IMG/VR virus record: IMGVR_UViG_3300005470_000022
Location: 1 to 20,897 of that record
DNA length: 20,897 bases
Direction: 5' to 3' (one strand)
Source: a virus
Positions within the stretch are counted from its first letter, which is position 1; each line of letters starts with the position of its first letter. Shown here in pieces: positions 4,093 to 20,071 of the stretch. The notes under the pieces were generated by a model. The model did no database searches and was not told the origin of the DNA. It saw only the letters and a program-made list of their open reading frames with translations. A program made the translations under genes and the position numbers.

Positions 4093-4547
4093 GTGTCCTC
4101 GCTCCACAGATCGTCTAAAAGATCAGGGTCAACACGTTGGTAGATATCGTCACGCATATCGAATGTAGGCTTATAGTCACCGGTGCTACTGTAGGCCGTG
4201 AACAAGTTGTTATCTGATCCCTGAAGTTCTGCCCCATCATCCAGTACCATCGATGCGTTGTTCTTGTTGATTGCGTCAATTCGCGAATCAAGATCTTCCT
4301 TCAGCTCTTTACTATCTTCTATGTTGCGTGTTCTCAGCAGAATGCCAAGATATGCGAAATGAATGGATAGATCCCTGGCAGTGGCATTGTTGCTGCTGAA
4401 TGGCGTTGTATAGCTTTTTGACAGCCGTTCATTAACTCGCATCCATCCATATGGCAACCAGACGTTAGCGATCTCCGACGAATTGATACCAATGGCTTCG
4501 ACATTGTAGTATGCCGCGAACTGATCTACTGTGGCGTATGTCGTCAT
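4089..4547 (-). CDS. Probable head-tail connector / adaptor (gp36-like)
   Basis: A 152-residue acidic, mainly helical protein beginning MTTYATVDQFAAYYNVEAIG. The opening TVDQFAAYY, the helix around WMRVNERLSKSY and the position directly before a gpG-like gene match phage gp36/DUF1320-like or head-completion adaptor proteins. Those bind under the portal and attach the tail. The C-terminus (DPDLLDDLWSEDT) is strongly acidic. It overlaps the radical SAM gene upstream by four bases (ATGA), so a typical structural gene is translationally coupled to an enzyme gene that does not belong to the usual structural set. The assignment is by size, order and weak pattern only. Confidence 0.55.
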   Translation of the reverse strand: MTTYATVDQFAAYYNVEAIGINSSEIANVWLPYGWMRVNERLSKSYTTPFSSNNATARDLSIHFAYLGILLRTRNIEDSKELKEDLDSRIDAINKNNASMVLDDGAELQGSDNNLFTAYSSTGDYKPTFDMRDDIYQRVDPDLLDDLWSEDT

Positions 4548-5227
4548 TTGAATTTTTCCGGATCGTCAACGCAATTCGCGCAAAGAGCAAACCGCCTGGT
4601 TTGCAGTTCGATTATATCTTCAATTGGGTGAAAAACAGATCCGTGAATGCACTCCCCGTCTGCGTCAACACAACATGCTGATATTCTTCCATCTACCAAA
4701 ACCATCATCCATCCGAGCCCTATCCACCCGCATGTCGCCCCGACCTTATCGACTGGCCAATTTACTTTCCCGGCCCAATCATTCGCAGATATAACCGGGT
4801 TACACGCGATATAATCGAGTATACCCCGGCTTTGTAGCATTCTCGGTACTTTGGCAAGTGCCTCCTGATCCGGGACATTCAGATGAATTGATACATGCAC
4901 CCGAATATTCAGCTCTGCCAAAACATCTGCAATGTCTTCCGTCATGAGCATTGCATTTGTCGATACCTGAATCTTTGTTTTTGGCAAGTACTTCCGCGCC
5001 AACCGGCAGAACAGCGTAAATTGCGGGTGAAGCAACGATTCGCCCAGGCCATGAAGCCATATTTCCTTTTGATTCAGTCTTGACGCTATATCCAATGTTC
5101 GGCTGAACGTCTGCAAATTCATAAATGATTTTTCGCGCAACTGAAGATGATTCGCGCAATAAACACAATTCAGATTGCACCGGTTCGTTAGTTCTATTTG
5201 GTGTATCCGCGATAAAATTGTTCCCAT
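4544..5227 (-). CDS. Radical SAM enzyme with SPASM-like cysteine-rich C-terminus
   Basis: A 227-residue protein with the radical SAM cluster motif CX3CX2C at residues 17, 21 and 24 (TNRCNLNCVYCANH). A GLGESLLHP stretch follows at about 60-68, corresponding to the family GGEPLLHP motif that contacts S-adenosylmethionine. Further cysteines at 166, 185, 186, 193, 216 and 219 (CGWIG, ISACCVD, GEC, CANC) look like a short SPASM/twitch domain binding an auxiliary iron-sulfur cluster. Enzymes of this architecture modify peptides, proteins or small molecules by radical chemistry. At 227 residues it is short for the family, so the core may be a partial barrel. It lies between the holin-like gene and the connector gene, overlapping the latter by four bases. 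The substrate is unknown; a virion protein, a host factor or a glycan precursor are possible. Confidence 0.88.
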   Translation of the reverse strand: MGTILSRIHQIELTNRCNLNCVYCANHLQLREKSFMNLQTFSRTLDIASRLNQKEIWLHGLGESLLHPQFTLFCRLARKYLPKTKIQVSTNAMLMTEDIADVLAELNIRVHVSIHLNVPDQEALAKVPRMLQSRGILDYIACNPVISANDWAGKVNWPVDKVGATCGWIGLGWMMVLVDGRISACCVDADGECIHGSVFHPIEDIIELQTRRFALCANCVDDPEKFK

Positions 5228-6278: not shown

Positions 6279-9278
6279 TCAAATATATTGCAAATTTGTG
6301 GCGATTGAATCTGTTTTTTCTTTCGCCAATTTTGCTATAAGCGCGTTCATATCTTCAGCGTTAACCGTTCGCCCTTCAATTACCCGCGGTGCTGCGCCAT
6401 TGATATTGTCGCCAGATCCGGCCACCTCAAGGTCTACCGCGAATCGAAAATGCAGAGACTTTCCTTGCATAACAAGGTCTGCACATTCAGAAACATACGG
6501 CAGTGAATCAATAACAAGGCGTGCATTGCCGTCGTTTAGCAGACCACGCCACATTTCAATCGCTTCATTCGCTCGATCAGCCATATCGCCAGTAATATTG
6601 CCGCCGTTCTGTTCCATTTCAAATCGGTTCTTGTGGGCAAGGTCTCTGATCCATAAAAATTTAGATAGCATCCGATCAGGATTTTCTTTTCTGTCACGCA
6701 CCATCAACGGCCAGTTGCGGACGAACCTATCTCGGCGTGTCTGCTCTGTTTCGTATCCGGCGTGAACAATACATGTTTCTTGAGCCGGGATAAGAAAAGT
6801 ACGGCCAGCACCTTTGTTAATTTCTGTTTCCGGATGCTCGTGCACCAACCCAAAAAACTTTATCGACTTATGATTTCGAAACAGTCGACATGGTAGGTCC
6901 GTCTTCATGACCGACGGTGGTTCGGCGGTATAGTGGTGCTGGTGGATAGCGTATGAATCGAATTCATTTTCACGCAAGTACTTAAAAACCCGGTGCTGGT
7001 GCTGCCAAATTTCGTCGGCATCAATCCACAAGATCCAGTCTTTTGTAGCTCGCTCTATTGTCAAATTTCTTGCTGGACCAAAACCCATTTCCGTTGGGCT
7101 TTGTGGCAGATAGAAAATATTTGCCGAAGGTATTATGCGTTTTATAGTCCGTTCTGTTGCGCAGAGTGAATCTCCCTGGTAATCAATCCCAATGACAAAT
7201 TCATCGGCTAAATACTTAACCGATCGCAGCGTCTTTGCCAGCATGTCTCCTTCTGCATCGACAATCATGCAACACGACAGCGTTTGCTTTGGTGCCTGGA
7301 CTGCAAACTTGCGATCATAATTGATATCGCGAATATCGTCATATTTGTCTACCGTCCAGGACCAGACCATATTCCCAAGAATATCTTGCCGGCGGTTGTC
7401 ATTATCACGGACATACAGCACTTGCAAATCCTTTTTGTGGCCGACAATGTCGAGTATATCTGCCTCCTCAAAATGGTGGACGTGTTCTATCGGAGTTGTC
7501 CGATCCTGGACATTCGCATCGTGTGGACCATGCGGTGTCGTCAGAATGATCCGCCCGCCAGGCTTTACAATCTTTTCGACTGAAGTGAGAAATTTATGAT
7601 AGTCGTTGATGTGCTCAAGGACTTCGGTGCAAATCACCAGGTCAAAATCAGGTGTGGTTACGTCTTCAGGGGTTATTACAGGATAAAACCTTACATTCCC
7701 GACATTATGTTGCGCTGTGAACCGACGCGCTTCATGGATTTGTTTGTCGGATAGATCGACCCCGGTGAATTGCAGTGACTTAAATTCATTTGCCCATGCG
7801 TGAGTATTCTGCCCAACACAGCAACCATAGTCAAGAATACGGCTGCCTTCAGGCATTTTTGATAGGTAATCGGTGATAGATTTTAGTCTGGGAATTCTAT
7901 TGAGAACATGTTGAAAATCTCCCAGCCTGTGGTCGTTGTTTATTTTTTGGTGGTATTCCGCCTGAGCGTTGTAGAATTCCGAGGTTTCCTTTCCGTCTGT
8001 TTTCGCATAAGACGGATACGTCTCAGATGTTCCCGGTAAATTGTCTGCTCTAAGTCCGTACTTTTCGGCCAGCTTGCCCGCCGCATGAATGTCTGAATAG
8101 TACATAAAATGCCGGTAAAGGCGTTCTTTATCGCTTGTCCTGGCCTTAAAATCATCATTGATAAGCTGTTCAAGCCCATCGACAGAAGCAGTGATCGAAT
8201 ACTCATGGCAGGCCCCCAATGCTTTTTTGTGAAGCTGCAACCACTTGTCTGGATTTTTCGAAATATAAGAAACAGCCTTAACCGTGTTTGCGATCACCGA
8301 CCTGGAAGATCCATCATGGTCAATCCAGTATACTCCTCCATTTTGCAATGTCTCAGGTAGTGCGCCAACCCTGGTTGCTACAATTGGCGTCCCTGCCGCC
8401 TGCTGCTCCATGACGGTAATGCATGACGTTTCTTCAAACTCTGTGGGATATACATGTAGCCAGCAGTTAGCTTGGATCACTGCCAGTTCTTGTTTTGATA
8501 AGAATCCAATATTCTCAACGTTTGGCATTTCGCTACATCGTCGGTACAGGTAGCCATACTGCCCAGCCATTGCCGGGTGACTGTGGTTATAGCTGCACAC
8601 CAGCAATTTTATTTCTGGATCGACTTTCGCCAACTGATCCATTACCCCATTTTCACCGACCAAATTTACCAGCCCCCTTTCCGGTCGGTGAGAATACAGA
8701 ATTGTTTTTGACCGCTGCTTCCGTTCTGGATTATGTGCCGTTGGATACAGGTCCAGCCGGATGCCGTTCCTAAATACTGCTGTGTTCGATACGCCGTAAA
8801 CACTTTTTACCTGTTCCGCATGCCAGTCAGACACTGCAAGAATACGGTCAACGTTCCACTGCTGTGCCATGATGCCGCCGATATAGCGCTTGAGCGCCAG
8901 GTCATGAGTCCACCAGTAGTTCAGCTTGCTGTTGTACTGCTGTGTGAATATACCCGGCGCGCGCTGCGCTATCAGCACGTCGTGCGGTATCGATCTAGCA
9001 TGCGCCTGGAAATTTGACCCAAATGGCGTCTGTTCGTTTTGGTCACCGACAGGTAAATACACCACACCGTTTACTGTTTTCGGTGTGTTATCAGGTATCC
9101 GTGAAAAAACGAATGCTGAGTGACCTCTTTTTGCCATCTCTTCGGCTGCCATTAGCCCCATCGTTTCAGAACCACCAAGGCTTTCGGCAGGCTTTGTGAT
9201 ATTTCCTTTTTCGTCGCGCACTTCTGTTAGTGTCAGCCCATCGAATGGCATTCCATTGACATACATAAATATTTTCAT
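6279..9278 (-). CDS. Trifunctional fusion: GT4 glycosyltransferase - SAM methyltransferase - GT2 glycosyltransferase
   Basis: A 999-residue protein with three enzyme domains. Residues 1-375 are a GT-B/GT4-type glycosyltransferase: GGSETMGLMAAEEMA at 35-49, ILYSHRPERGL at 193-203, and FEETSCITVMEQQAAGTPIV at 281-300, which carries the C-terminal sugar-nucleotide motif. Residues 435-625 are a class I methyltransferase with ILDYGCCVGQ at 481-490, FTGVDLS at 504-510, FDLVICTEVLEHI at 545-557 and VKPGGRIILTTP at 571-582. Residues 664-880 are a GT-A/GT2 domain with MGFGPARNLT at 731-740 and the metal-binding WIDADE at 751-756. The C-terminal 120 residues are unassigned. I chose ATG 9278; in-frame TTG 9305 and GTG 9287 lie upstream and overlap the preceding gene. 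It probably builds or caps a methylated glycan in the cytoplasm. Acceptor unknown. Confidence 0.9.
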   Translation of the reverse strand: MKIFMYVNGMPFDGLTLTEVRDEKGNITKPAESLGGSETMGLMAAEEMAKRGHSAFVFSRIPDNTPKTVNGVVYLPVGDQNEQTPFGSNFQAHARSIPHDVLIAQRAPGIFTQQYNSKLNYWWTHDLALKRYIGGIMAQQWNVDRILAVSDWHAEQVKSVYGVSNTAVFRNGIRLDLYPTAHNPERKQRSKTILYSHRPERGLVNLVGENGVMDQLAKVDPEIKLLVCSYNHSHPAMAGQYGYLYRRCSEMPNVENIGFLSKQELAVIQANCWLHVYPTEFEETSCITVMEQQAAGTPIVATRVGALPETLQNGGVYWIDHDGSSRSVIANTVKAVSYISKNPDKWLQLHKKALGACHEYSITASVDGLEQLINDDFKARTSDKERLYRHFMYYSDIHAAGKLAEKYGLRADNLPGTSETYPSYAKTDGKETSEFYNAQAEYHQKINNDHRLGDFQHVLNRIPRLKSITDYLSKMPEGSRILDYGCCVGQNTHAWANEFKSLQFTGVDLSDKQIHEARRFTAQHNVGNVRFYPVITPEDVTTPDFDLVICTEVLEHINDYHKFLTSVEKIVKPGGRIILTTPHGPHDANVQDRTTPIEHVHHFEEADILDIVGHKKDLQVLYVRDNDNRRQDILGNMVWSWTVDKYDDIRDINYDRKFAVQAPKQTLSCCMIVDAEGDMLAKTLRSVKYLADEFVIGIDYQGDSLCATERTIKRIIPSANIFYLPQSPTEMGFGPARNLTIERATKDWILWIDADEIWQHQHRVFKYLRENEFDSYAIHQHHYTAEPPSVMKTDLPCRLFRNHKSIKFFGLVHEHPETEINKGAGRTFLIPAQETCIVHAGYETEQTRRDRFVRNWPLMVRDRKENPDRMLSKFLWIRDLAHKNRFEMEQNGGNITGDMADRANEAIEMWRGLLNDGNARLVIDSLPYVSECADLVMQGKSLHFRFAVDLEVAGSGDNINGAAPRVIEGRTVNAEDMNALIAKLAKEKTDSIATNLQYI

Positions 9279-9283
9279 AGTTT

Positions 9284-10243
9284 TCACACAAAAAGTGGTT
9301 GCCAATAATATGACACAATCTCATCCCATTTAACAGCGGTGTAAGCCGGTGTATGCTGGATTGTGTCTGTTTCGTTCAGAAGAAATTTATCAAACGGGAT
9401 ATAGTCGCCGACAGTATCGGCCAGCGCCCCGCAAAGATTTACAACCGGTTTGCATCCGCAGTATTGTGCCTTCAACGCATTCAGGCAAAACAGCTCAGCA
9501 TCTGGCTTGTTCAGCGGCAAACACCAGTACTCTGCGCGCCAATATTCTTCCTCGATCTGCTCTTTCGGCAGTTCGCCTAACGCAATTATCTGGTCCTGCC
9601 GCATCAGGTGTTTTATTGTGTTTTTCAGCACTGTATCCTGGCACATTGCGTCAAAGTTACGGAAACCATAAGCAATACGAAGTTCTATTGCCGGGTAATG
9701 CAACCTCAACACCTGCCAGTTTTGCAGTAACTGCAAAAGTCCACGATCTGGGCTGCTGCAATACAGCATAGTGTTCGGATCTTTGTCGGATTTATTTCTA
9801 TCAAGTGACAATGTGTCTACACCTAAAGGTATAGCACATGACTTATCAACTGGAACAAATAAATTTCGCGACTCGTGGTATCGGGAAATATTGACAAAGT
9901 AATTTATCTTATCCATCGGCCATTTTTTTTCTACCTCAGCAGACCAATGGATATTGCGATAGCAGGATAACCCCTGTAACCAAGGCAGTTTATCCTTGAA
10001 CGTTATAAAAATCGTATTTGCCGGATCTTCTACCGAACACTTTTCACGCGGTTGATACCTTACCCCATGTCGCTCTGTGTTGTTGCCATCTTTTTGACTG
10101 TGATAAACATCAACCGAGTACCCGGCGCGAACCAGCGCTTCAGATAGCAGAACAACCGCCTCTTCCGACCCGCCCAAAAACCGATCGATATCGTCTGGGC
10201 ACCAGCCACCAGCAACTTCATTCGTGTAAATTATGATTTTCAC
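9284..10243 (-). CDS. GT4-type glycosyltransferase (GT-B fold)
   Basis: A 319-residue protein starting at GTG 10243 (MKIIIYTNEVAGGWCPDD), overlapping the upstream small gene as GTGA with AAGG in front. FLGGSEEAVVLLSEALVRAG is the N-terminal glycine-loop region of GT4-like enzymes. LYCSSPDRGLLQLLQNW marks the start of the C-terminal Rossmann domain, and the motif region near AEYWCLPLNKPDAELFCLNA carries the donor-binding Glu. It resembles the first domain of the following fusion protein in several places (GGSE, YCS/YSHxPxRGL), suggesting a tandem duplication. No membrane segment or signal peptide is seen, so it acts in the cytoplasm. Donor and acceptor are unknown. Glycosylation of a virion protein or synthesis of a glycan intermediate with the fusion enzyme is the simplest idea. 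Confidence 0.85.
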   Translation of the reverse strand: MKIIIYTNEVAGGWCPDDIDRFLGGSEEAVVLLSEALVRAGYSVDVYHSQKDGNNTERHGVRYQPREKCSVEDPANTIFITFKDKLPWLQGLSCYRNIHWSAEVEKKWPMDKINYFVNISRYHESRNLFVPVDKSCAIPLGVDTLSLDRNKSDKDPNTMLYCSSPDRGLLQLLQNWQVLRLHYPAIELRIAYGFRNFDAMCQDTVLKNTIKHLMRQDQIIALGELPKEQIEEEYWRAEYWCLPLNKPDAELFCLNALKAQYCGCKPVVNLCGALADTVGDYIPFDKFLLNETDTIQHTPAYTAVKWDEIVSYYWQPLFV

Positions 10244-16459: not shown

Positions 16460-18007
16460 TCAAAACAGCGATTGTTCGGCCTGATAACTTGTATATGCCG
16501 CTGATTGAATCATTATTGGCGATAGGTACTGTTCGATACCAACCCGCTCAGACAGCAGATATACAGCCTTTGCAACTGCGTCTATCCGGTCGTCGTGCGC
16601 GCCTTTCGGGAATGCCTCAGATTCGTCGTAAAACGTTTGTCCGTCGCAACGCTGGTATAGCCACCCGGTGCCATTGTGCACTGCTATATTTCCAGTCTCA
16701 GCCTTGTTTGCGAGTCTGTCAACATACGACTCTTTGCTCTTGTTTACACGGTAGGCTTGCCGCCTATAGCGGTCTAATACGCGTGATAAATACGCGCTTA
16801 CCATTTTGCCAGACGCGCCACCTTCTTCTTCCCATATTTGCGTCGTCCCTGGATATCGGTATTCGTCCTGCTGCGCTGTTTGAGCGATCAGCGATTCGAC
16901 CGCTGCCGGTGATCCGCGTTCAGCGACCACGTCTATTATGTAGTATGTGCCACCGTAGTATTGGCACAATGCGCCTACTGTCCAGTCAGGGTCATTCGTT
17001 TTGTTTTTCTCGGTTCCGGCTAGATCCCAGAATCGGATACGCTGTCCTTCGGACGGCAGTATATCGACCTGCCTGAACCAATCCCGGTTGATCAGGTTAC
17101 CGCCACGGATATATGGTGTCTGCTGGAATAGCGCGTCCCATTCGTAGCGGTTACGCCTGAATTGTTCCAGGAATTCGACTGAGTATTGCGAAGGCCAAAG
17201 CGCTTCGCCTACTTCCCGCTTGTCTGTATAATGCCTATACGCATAGGCATTTTCGAGTATAGCCGGGTATTGGATCACGTCCCAGGATTCTGGCTCTTCT
17301 TCCAGCAGTCGGCCAGCCAGATCGTTTCTGTGCCACCTGGTCAAGATAATGATCACCACCGCGCCTTTCTGCCGCCGCGTCAAAAACGTCGATTTATACC
17401 AGTCATATATCTTGTTTTGGTACGTTTTTGATTCTGCTTCTTCGCGGTTCTTCACCGGGTCGTCTATCACACCCAGGCGGCTAAAACCCATGCCGGTAAT
17501 GCCGCCACCGACACCGGCTGACCTGTAGATGCCCTTGCGACCGACCACCTCAAATATGTCGCTGTTTCGCAGCCATGTCCCGGTGGCCTGAGTGCGGATG
17601 TTTTTCGATGATAGCGTTGTATTCGGGAAGATATTGCGATACGATTCGCTGTCGATGATGCGCTGAACGTCGCGGTTGTTCTGGCTGGATAGGTCGTCGC
17701 CGTAGCTGGTGGCGATTATTGAGTCGTCTGGCCACCGGCCCAGGCAATAGGCGGGAAGGTATCTGGATATAATTTCAGACTTGCCATGACGCGGTGGAAG
17801 AAAGAACATCAGGTTTTGATTGCCTGATTCCAGCGCGATATCTATCCGATCGCAGATGGCCTCGTGGAACCACTGCAGCGAATACGCTGGATTCACCGCC
17901 AGGATGAACGACGCTAGATCATTCTTTGCTACTTCCTGACAGATCACTTCCCGCCCTTCCGGTGTTTTCGCGGCTTCGGTGATCGATGACGATTTGCCTG
18001 ATTTCAC
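16460..18007 (-). CDS. terL: Terminase large subunit (ATPase and nuclease)
   Basis: A 515-residue packaging motor. Walker A is PPRHGKSE at residues 71-78, Walker B is LGVIDDP at 178-184, and the coupling motif LTRWH is at 222-226. The C-terminal RNase H-like nuclease shows RFWDLAGTEK with D328, an acidic WEEEGG at about 392-397 and GAHDDRIDA at 469-477. It binds the portal, translocates DNA with ATP and cuts the concatemer. I list the GTG at 18007, which overlaps TerS by 89 bases. A second GTG at 17947 has GGAAGG a few bases upstream and would drop 20 poorly conserved residues, so the true start may be there. The two-domain length is normal and all key residues are present. Confidence 0.95.
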   Translation of the reverse strand: MKSGKSSSITEAAKTPEGREVICQEVAKNDLASFILAVNPAYSLQWFHEAICDRIDIALESGNQNLMFFLPPRHGKSEIISRYLPAYCLGRWPDDSIIATSYGDDLSSQNNRDVQRIIDSESYRNIFPNTTLSSKNIRTQATGTWLRNSDIFEVVGRKGIYRSAGVGGGITGMGFSRLGVIDDPVKNREEAESKTYQNKIYDWYKSTFLTRRQKGAVVIIILTRWHRNDLAGRLLEEEPESWDVIQYPAILENAYAYRHYTDKREVGEALWPSQYSVEFLEQFRRNRYEWDALFQQTPYIRGGNLINRDWFRQVDILPSEGQRIRFWDLAGTEKNKTNDPDWTVGALCQYYGGTYYIIDVVAERGSPAAVESLIAQTAQQDEYRYPGTTQIWEEEGGASGKMVSAYLSRVLDRYRRQAYRVNKSKESYVDRLANKAETGNIAVHNGTGWLYQRCDGQTFYDESEAFPKGAHDDRIDAVAKAVYLLSERVGIEQYLSPIMIQSAAYTSYQAEQSLF

Positions 18008-18485
18008 GAATATCGTCTCTGCTTAGTTTAGAGAAGTCAAACTGAACCGGTATTGGACCGGCTTCGGTGCTTATTGCGTGTTCCTGTTTTTCGCGCCACT
18101 GCTTTGGTTTTCGGTTCACGAGCCAGAACTTGAGCGCCACTGCATCAGGTGGGTAGTGCCGTTTCACCACCTTTCGTTCTTTGCGTGTTGGTTTGCCATC
18201 CTTGTCAATTTGCACGGTCGTGTGTTCTTCCTCATAGTCGTATCCAAGCGCTTTTTTCAGTAGTGCATTTTCGACTTCGATGTCCACCGGAGCCTTGCCA
18301 CGGGCCAAACCTTCCGCGAATTCCGGGTACTTTGCCACGTAAGTGTAAAACGCAGTCTTTTTTATTCCTAGCTTTTCAGCTATTTGTGCATCGGACAGAC
18401 CTTCCCTGGCCCATCCTTCTGCTAGTGTTGGGAATGTGTCTTTGTATTTTGTTTTTTGGCCTGCGTTACTTTTCTTGCGCTGCAA
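17919..18485 (-). CDS. terS: Terminase small subunit
   Basis: A 188-residue protein with an N-terminal helix-turn-helix at about residues 30-60 (GLSDAQIAEKLGIKKTAFYT, then YVAKYPEF). A central oligomerisation region follows (VENALLKKALGYDYEE, VQIDKDGKPTRKERKVVKRH), then PPDAVALKFWLVNRKPKQW, a stretch shared with many TerS proteins. It recognises the packaging site and loads TerL. The start is TTG at 18485. An in-frame TAA lies eight codons upstream and no ATG or GTG lies between, so TTG is the only start that keeps the N-terminus. It overlaps the glycosyltransferase gene by 20 bases. The pac or cos site it binds is not identifiable here. Confidence 0.88.
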   Translation of the reverse strand: MQRKKSNAGQKTKYKDTFPTLAEGWAREGLSDAQIAEKLGIKKTAFYTYVAKYPEFAEGLARGKAPVDIEVENALLKKALGYDYEEEHTTVQIDKDGKPTRKERKVVKRHYPPDAVALKFWLVNRKPKQWREKQEHAISTEAGPIPVQFDFSKLSRDDIREIRQIVIDHRSRENTGRAGSDLSGSSKE

Positions 18486-19326
18486 TTTTTTTGAACCTGT
18501 CTGAAATTATCTTTGGCACCGTTGCCTTCCAATTTATTCTGTGATGGATTCTTTTGTTTTTTGTTACCATTATCGAGCACTTGACACTGGACGGACACAG
18601 CATGACGGTGTAAAACGTTTTCAGGTATGTCCCGTGGTCTAAATAAACGTCGGTCATGCCACCTTGGTTTTGTTGCGTACTCTTTTGCTGCAATGCTACT
18701 ATTGGAATGGTCAAAAATATTTTTCCTTGCCCACCAAGCAGGAAATATGTATTTACATCTTCATTTATTGTGCCAATGAATTTAAATCGCCTTTCAGTGC
18801 TTAGGAAAAAACTATTCATTGCCTTGCGGCTTCCTTTTAATCCAAACCCGCTATATTTTCCGCCTATGTGGTCACCAGTTTGTGACATTGCGGTGGATAA
18901 TATATCATGCGATGCGTAAAAGTTAAATATCAGATCCCAAATAGCATCTAGATTTCTTATTGGCCTAGCTTCGTAACACTTTGTTTTGTTGTACTTGTAA
19001 ACAAATGACGTATAATCGTCATCTAGCTCGATGAATTGTTTATAGCCCAGGCTTTCGGCAATATCAAACCCAGCGTTTCTGGCAAAGACTATCGTTTTTG
19101 TTTTACCGAAGTTATCCGCTTTATCTGTTTCATCAATATATCTTTGTTTATTGAATACGACCACTTCCTTTTTGTAAAGGCGTTTGTACTCTTCCGCTGT
19201 TTTGTCATAATCGTCGATGACTATGAAGATCGGCCCGGTGTAACCATGTCGTCTCAGCGTTCTGTAAGTGTAGATGCGATCTGGCCGACCGTGACTTAGG
19301 ATCAAGACGCAATATTTATTCACCAT
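18466..19326 (-). CDS. TAGT/GREB1-like glycosyltransferase, probable DNA-base glycosyltransferase
   Basis: A 286-residue GT-A-like enzyme. Visible motifs are YCVLILSHGRPDRIYTYRTL at 5-24, IVIDDYDKT at 35-43, FARNAGFDIAESLG at 81-94, FIELDDDYTSF at 98-108 with the metal-binding acidic cluster, STERRFKFIGTINEDVNTY at 165-183 and GGMTDVYLD at 212-220. This set is that of the TET/JBP-associated glycosyltransferase family (also annotated GREB1-like). Family members occur in kinetoplastids and phages and are thought to add sugars to hydroxymethylated bases in DNA. I start at ATG 19326, inside the ParB-like stop region; an upstream in-frame TTG at 19347 is less likely. It is coupled to the ParB-like gene, a partner reported for this family. 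No TET/JBP oxygenase lies in the window, so the source of the hydroxyl is unknown. Confidence 0.8.
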   Translation of the reverse strand: MVNKYCVLILSHGRPDRIYTYRTLRRHGYTGPIFIVIDDYDKTAEEYKRLYKKEVVVFNKQRYIDETDKADNFGKTKTIVFARNAGFDIAESLGYKQFIELDDDYTSFVYKYNKTKCYEARPIRNLDAIWDLIFNFYASHDILSTAMSQTGDHIGGKYSGFGLKGSRKAMNSFFLSTERRFKFIGTINEDVNTYFLLGGQGKIFLTIPIVALQQKSTQQNQGGMTDVYLDHGTYLKTFYTVMLCPSSVKCSIMVTKNKRIHHRINWKATVPKIISDRFKKIAAQEK

Positions 19327-20071
19327 AATCAATTGCTGACTGGTCAAGTATTTTATCGATCATCATTGTGTATCCTTTTGCAATTGCGTCTTCCAGATCG
19401 ATTATGACGAGAGCTGAGTCTTCCATTAACGCTTGCATTTCTGGTGTTGCCCTTGAGTAGTATTGCGCTATATTTTCGTAATTGAAGACGGTATGCCGTG
19501 CGGCTGCGTGTATCAAAAACTGTTTTTCTTGTTCTGTTATCGTGTCGTTCTTTTTTATCGCCAGTATCAAGGTATCGCGTTTTGATGTGCTGCATAGTTC
19601 TTCGATAGCGATTTCTTTTTCATCTGGCTCGTATATTGGCGCTTCAATTTTGTTGGTGTAGATCGATTCTTTTTCTATTGAAATAAGTTCTGCGAGGTTT
19701 AATTCGTTGAATGCAGGATGGTCTTTCAATTCGGATATGATGTCATCCAGCCGTTCATCGAATTCGCCGGATATGTGCGGGTTGTTGAGCGTGATGTTCA
19801 GCGCTTTTTCGTCCTGGTCCGACAGATCGACGATGGTGCATTCGATTTCTGATTCGGCTGGCAGGCCAAGTGCTTCGAGGCGTTTGTGCCCGCCGACGAT
19901 TGTGTTCTTGCCGTTGCGGATGTTGACGATTACGTCTTGGAGGTAGCCGTACCGGGACAGTGATTGTTCAAGCCCAGCCTTGGCTTTTGCGGATATTGTT
20001 CGCGGGTTGTATTCGGCAGGTGTGATGTCAGCAACGCGAAACACCTGCCGTTCGGCTTTTGTTGGCTTCAT
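19316..20071 (-). CDS. ParB-like nuclease-domain protein
   Basis: A 251-residue protein with a ParB/Srx N-terminal domain at about residues 8-110. YNPRTI at 21-26, YGYLQDVIVN at 41-50 and TIVGGHKRLEAL at 57-68 contain the GxxR-type catalytic/CTP-binding motif, and EKALNITLNNP follows at 88-98. The C-terminal half is helical and acidic (RATPEMQALMEDSALVII) and lacks the helix-turn-helix of chromosome-partition ParB. It is therefore not a partition protein but the phage type often found with DNA modification genes, acting as a nuclease, ATPase or guide for the modifying enzyme. It is coupled to the TAGT-like glycosyltransferase by an 11-base overlap. The ATG at 20071 lacks a Shine-Dalgarno and a promoter-like sequence lies directly upstream. 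Confidence 0.85.
   Translation of the reverse strand: MKPTKAERQVFRVADITPAEYNPRTISAKAKAGLEQSLSRYGYLQDVIVNIRNGKNTIVGGHKRLEALGLPAESEIECTIVDLSDQDEKALNITLNNPHISGEFDERLDDIISELKDHPAFNELNLAELISIEKESIYTNKIEAPIYEPDEKEIAIEELCSTSKRDTLILAIKKNDTITEQEKQFLIHAAARHTVFNYENIAQYYSRATPEMQALMEDSALVIIDLEDAIAKGYTMMIDKILDQSAIDYGE

Follow-up and report, generated by a model that had tools for sequence, protein, structure and literature searches.

To our knowledge, the sugars known from phage-genome DNA need a prior handle on the base, e.g. hmC, hmU or 5-hydroxycytosine. Phage TAGT glycosyltransferases with ParB-like neighbours were reportedly described by Iyer et al. in 2013 as part of TET/JBP-linked systems. The ggt product of phage T6, annotated as beta-glucosyl-HMC-alpha-glucosyltransferase, is encoded next to a dCMP hydroxymethylase and extends a sugar already present on hmC; a Tequatrovirus TAGT has been linked to di-glucosylated cytosine (PMC13390438). 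Fusions of a ParB fold with a methyltransferase are frequent in phages (PMC12704722), and the DNA of phage Rosebush contains dPreQ0 at ~28% of G (PMC6884629). The locus described here resembles the TET/JBP-linked systems in combining a phage TAGT with a ParB-like neighbour, but it differs from them in that no TET/JBP was detected here or in complete relatives and that the constant element is the C-terminal domain of the partner protein. We read it as a ParB-targeted phage DNA-glycosylation cassette of two proteins that are probably co-translated, with an ordinary base as a possible acceptor, and assign this reading a probability of roughly 0.7.

The window we analyzed is a whole IMG/VR entry of 20,897 bp. 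It is probably a fragment, so that genes missing from this phage itself are uninformative. The gene order is ParB-TAGT-TerS-TerL, followed by a Mu-type portal, all on one strand. As originally predicted, two overlapping genes are located on the minus strand: the ParB-like partner gene (19316-20071), composed of a ParB head and a C-terminal domain, and the TAGT glycosyltransferase gene (18466-19326), which encodes 286 aa from an ATG at 19326. The predicted motifs were also exact, with FIELDDDYTSF at residues 105-115, INEDVNTY at 194-201 and GGMTDVYLD at 229-237 of the TAGT protein and GGHKR at residues 60-64 of the ParB-like protein. The first start of the TAGT open reading frame is an alternative TTG at 19347, giving a 32-nt overlap of the reading frames; since the ATG is preferred on the basis of homologue starts and model confidence, the overlap between the partner stop and the TAGT start comes down to 11 nt (19316-19326, minus strand, letters ATGGTGAATAA). 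Across 160 measured pairs the overlap with the TAGT start is 8 or 11 nt in 132 (11 nt in 90, 8 nt in 42), 11 nt being the commonest length in relatives. The small terminase subunit (TerS, 17919-18485, minus strand; PHROG 309, E=1.1e-47) and the large subunit (TerL, 16460-18007, minus strand; PF03237, 4.7e-13; PHROG 38, 7.5e-90) lie directly after the cassette, in agreement with the proposed ParB and terminase neighbourhood. Defining a ParB-head cassette as a head directly beside a DNA-modifying enzyme family and a terminase, we find one in the window. The cassette is also immediately upstream of the terminase in c5, jlb1, E. coli 666R9 and NTR1, and 82 of 133 loci have a recognisable terminase-like gene downstream. 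The original prediction further suggested that the sugar is added just before packaging. This timing is not required, because stand-alone pairs of the C-terminal domain and TAGT, which have no ParB head, are often found near recombination and replication-type genes (as judged from sequence fragments, without a family scan).

The TAGT protein matches Pfam PF20691 far above the curated cut-off (E=4e-25, 89.4 bits, cut-off 27.5) and PHROG 842 with E=5.9e-65, which bears out its assignment to the TAGT family. Searching PDB sequences with the protein or its profile gave nothing credible. The DDD motif (residues 109-111; 19015-19023, minus strand) is the presumed metal/NDP-sugar site of a GT-A enzyme, and D110 and D111 are invariant among 35 relatives. 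The same is true for D197 of the NED motif (residues 195-197; 18757-18765, minus strand), a candidate catalytic acid. A C-terminal HH pair (residues 268-269; 18541-18546, minus strand) is family-specific: it is invariant in 14 aligned relatives and absent from T6 ggt. T6 ggt itself belongs to PF20691 (35.8 bits vs 27.5) and PHROG 842, retains R90, DDD, E196/D197, G208, Q225 and GG, and is annotated as DNA-acting. It differs from the present enzyme in the missing HH, in the adjoining dCMP hydroxymethylase, in its pre-glucosylated substrate and in an annotated neighbourhood that has no ParB/C-domain partner. A direct hhalign comparison of the TAGT alignment with T6 ggt alone was not significant (E=0.17), so the kinship rests on the common Pfam and PHROG models. 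The T6-derived name of PHROG 842 is now carried over to TAGTs without a known acceptor.

The AlphaFold2 model of TAGT, for which the input alignment held window and fetched-locus proteins only, has a predicted GT-A fold (pLDDT 86.8, pTM 0.86). VIA-align placed it closest to ppGalNAc-T2 (Z 13.4; 221 residues at 4.6 A). Numerous GT-A chains scored Z 11-13, and many GT-A enzymes came within about 1 Z of this best match. The fold neighbours are general GT-A enzymes, protein and polysaccharide glycosyltransferases among them; the modelled fold fits sugar transfer and leaves the acceptor unnamed. A structural placement in an ordinary polysaccharide glycosyltransferase family was originally proposed as evidence against DNA glycosylation. 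The comparison confirmed a GT-A fold for the model, but it is not decisive on this point because the model resembles many GT-A enzymes and the fold is silent on the acceptor.

TAGT relatives were found in 41 GenBank phage records, and profile scans yielded 36 prokaryote-genome loci and 80 viral loci, the latter fetched from at least 575 matching IMG/VR stretches. The titles of the prokaryote records include Bacteroidota, Bacillota, Pseudomonadota, Verrucomicrobia, Kiritimatiellae, Spirochaetes, Cloacimonadota, Falkowbacteria and others, and relatives also occur in Nocardia phage NTR1 and the haloarchaeal virus HHTV-2. No natural ParB-TAGT fusion, which was wanted for modelling of the complex, was found. 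Some cassettes contain two or three tandem TAGT copies (L050, 7857-10843; also L028, L030, L037 and L063); some of these copies are very divergent and perhaps serve successive sugar additions.

The constant partner of TAGT is not the ParB head but the C-terminal domain of the ParB-like protein, a near-constant coupling that was overlooked in the original prediction. This adaptor-like domain (~110 aa, approximately residues 138-251; 19316-19660, minus strand) was always observed beside TAGT. In a tblastn search with the ParB gene, the similarity to many phage ParB-methyltransferase genes was confined to its first ~104-180 residues. Vibrio phages pv27 and Va1, in contrast, encode a short protein upstream of TAGT to which just residues 135-234 align. 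The C-terminal domain alone matches 28 phage records, every one of which is also on the TAGT list. Among 133 loci selected by TAGT (not independent, as some are near copies) 99 have a head and the C-terminal domain and 27 have the C-terminal domain alone, all 126 beside TAGT; of the other seven, four lie at contig edges and three are divergent Vibrio/Aeromonas genes. A divergent C-terminal domain was recognised in a Porphyromonas locus (L014, E=2.9e-13). In the reverse test, loci were newly fetched on the basis of the C-terminal domain, and TAGT lay within 1.5 kb downstream in 75 of 75; one of them is a second copy of a known contig (L001). A Pfam search assigned the domain to no family. Its model is helical (pLDDT 80.4, pTM 0.60) and has no match in the PDB (best Foldseek E 1.3, best VIA-align Z 2.3); with a model of only moderate confidence we do not claim a new fold.

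The ParB-type head (approximately residues 1-125; 19697-20071, minus strand) contains the GGHKR nucleotide-pocket motif and is optional, dispensable and interchangeable, a second point that had been overlooked. The ParB-like protein matches PHROG 620 (ParB-like) with 1.6e-29 and PHROG 498 (ParB-DNA methyltransferase) with 1.8e-21 over residues 3-146. Its PF02195 score of 20.7 bits is under the cut-off of 26.3, and PF02195 is matched by 43 of 47 aligned relatives (best 4.8e-14). The locus does not show the ParABS organisation of a partition ParB (parA neighbour, HTH and C-terminal dimerisation domain): no HTH was detected, parA was not among the neighbouring genes observed, and the C-terminal part is the TAGT-linked domain. 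In 200 loci with the C-terminal domain and TAGT the head is present at 113 and absent at 87. At least seven changes between headed and headless forms are forced by well-supported branches of a 66-row tree, in which the bootstrap is not fully settled.

The same kind of head is reused with various DNA-modifying enzymes, usually upstream of the terminase, as we observed in comparison loci that were hand-picked from the match list and are not a random sample. In Nigel, gp1 (ParB), gp2 (Tet_JBP) and gp3 (Ploopntkinase3) precede TerL, and MakoManhole carries ParB, Tet_JBP (weak, 5.7e-4), ADDT and Ploopntkinase3, then TerL. FrenchFry, a Rosebushvirus, combines ParB with DpdA (annotated as queuine tRNA-ribosyltransferase), QueC, QueD, QueE and FolE (GTP cyclohydrolase), and in Typha we found ParB, DpdA (queuine tRNA-ribosyltransferase), QueD, QueE, FolE and the terminase. 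These actinophage cassettes (Nigel, MakoManhole and the Rosebush group) thus share with our locus the kind of head and the place before the terminase, but contain TET and kinase (with or without ADDT) or DpdA and preQ0 synthesis instead of the C-terminal domain and TAGT. The PHROG 498 ParB-DNA methyltransferase fusions of Streptococcus and gut phages have a homologous head upstream of the terminase as well, with a fused methyltransferase in place of the C-terminal domain and separate TAGT; in Javan51, for example, a ParB-N6_N4_Mtase fusion and a C-methyltransferase lie upstream of the terminase. Over 143 residues the NTR1 head shares 54.5% identity with the Nigel gp1 head, and its identity to other TAGT-linked heads does not exceed 35%, while the NTR1 C-terminal domain is ~50% identical to distant TAGT-type C-terminal domains and absent from Nigel gp1. 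We read this sequence pattern as an apparent exchange of enzyme modules under one kind of ParB head.

Some further arrangements were noted in these loci. In Baloo (L217) and Laroye (L222) a ParB head, a PAPS-reductase-like gene and a second ParB-like gene precede the terminase, in Baloo directly, and may form a cassette for sulfur-related DNA modification. In AlanGrant (L218, 1-3152) the head adjoins a PLP-dependent-enzyme-like gene and a kinase, upstream of the terminase, and in Warren (L224, 2962-4114) an acetyltransferase; these genes are possible further partner enzymes. Nigel gp2 (L214, 776-1744) carries the PHROG 6059 label queuine tRNA-ribosyltransferase, yet Pfam finds Tet_JBP.

The original prediction implied a sugar on hydroxymethyl bases. 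DNA as the acceptor is still the best reading, as T6 ggt belongs to the same families and the ParB head is common to other phage DNA-modification enzymes; the hydroxymethyl/TET route is not supported, as no such enzymes were detected in complete relatives. The proposed search for TET/JBP and hydroxymethylase genes was run on relatives, the record of this phage itself being incomplete, and returned neither. The Tet_JBP profile matched in none of the 41 records and in none of 27 further genomes or records with the cassette or a relative, while the same search detects the Nigel TET at E=4.2e-8. When looking for thymidylate-synthase-type hydroxymethylases we observed the family in only two large phages of the 41, both with thymidylate synthase as best assignment, and in 0 of 21 further fragments. 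The 2OG-FeII_Oxy_3 and 2OG-FeII_Oxy_2 profiles gave 0/7 each. For the complete 31.8-kb genome of Lactobacillus phage c5, 33 of ~50 proteins were scanned against Pfam and contained no base-oxidising enzyme; the other proteins carry routine annotations, taken as given. When neighbouring genes were clustered in search of a conserved acceptor-making gene, only the partner and the terminase stood out, and in the literature searched we found no restriction or nucleoside results on c5, HHTV-2 or relatives. Very divergent, novel or host enzymes that make the acceptor may remain beyond such profile searches. A hydroxymethyl-pyrimidine produced by a TET/JBP enzyme or hydroxymethylase from the unsequenced part of this phage, and then glycosylated by TAGT, would suit a 20.9-kb fragment, the dCMP hydroxymethylase adjoining T6 ggt and a family name that reflects TET-linked members; given the empty Tet_JBP searches beside a detected control, the scarcity of the thymidylate synthase family and the c5 proteins scanned, we consider this route unlikely.

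That the acceptor of TAGT is a protein or a surface glycan, on the capsid, the tail or the host envelope, with the ParB gene as a mere packaging or regulation neighbour, is suggested by the closest structures, which are GT-A protein and polysaccharide glycosyltransferases with ppGalNAc-T2 at the top, and by two separate glycosyltransferase genes among the virion genes of the window, which make glycosylation of something else in this phage possible. However, the near-constant overlapping coupling, a partner head that is common to DNA methyltransferase, TET and DpdA cassettes, and the presence of T6 ggt within PF20691 make such an acceptor improbable. ParB folds are also known as nucleases or NTP switches without a link to modification. 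The ParB/C-domain protein could be imagined as a nuclease or sequence-specific DNA-binding switch in a cassette whose target is the DNA of the host or of a rival; TAGT would then mark either this DNA or that of the phage itself, and ParB-methylase and related ParB domains have been reported as nucleases or nucleotidases (PMC5512222). The head is absent from 87 of the 200 loci, however, and therefore cannot be the core activity, which leaves this explanation hardly credible. We thus prefer DNA glycosylation: the phage genome probably receives a sugar mark from the cassette, despite the lack of a recognisable handle-making enzyme in complete relatives. The C-terminal domain would bind and orient TAGT, the ParB head, probably nucleotide-bound, would load or direct the complex onto DNA, and TAGT would move a sugar from a host NDP-sugar to the phage DNA, where it may protect from host nucleases. 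A DNA glycosyltransferase without an acceptor is, as far as we know, unusual, and this counts against DNA glycosylation. As complete relatives have no recognised hydroxymethyl-base enzyme, the acceptor would be either an unmodified base or other DNA group used directly by the TAGT/C-domain pair, or a group supplied by a host enzyme or by one that escaped recognition. A tentative and rather doubtful extension is that the pair forms a self-contained, one-step DNA glycosyltransferase that acts on an ordinary base or native DNA group without prior hydroxylation, in phages from a wide range of bacterial phyla as well as at least one archaeal virus. The cassette is common in IMG/VR and is found in cultured phages whose genomes are small enough to list every gene; in combination with the lack of a recognised handle-making enzyme this points to a hidden new handle-making step or direct glycosylation of DNA. 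For structural and mechanistic studies the partner C-terminal domain offers a new target, and the interchangeable head suggests that phages share a means of guiding different modifying enzymes to the phage genome.

The two glycosyltransferase genes among the virion genes of the window encode a 1008-aa protein with GT4-like, methyltransferase and GT2-like (SunS-like) parts (6279-9305, minus strand), for which tblastn found no match at E<=1e-10 in 50,697 phage records, and a neighbouring GT4-like protein (9284-10243, minus strand); virion glycosylation is a possible function of both. A radical-SAM protein with a weak SPASM match is encoded among the head and tail genes (4544-5227, minus strand).
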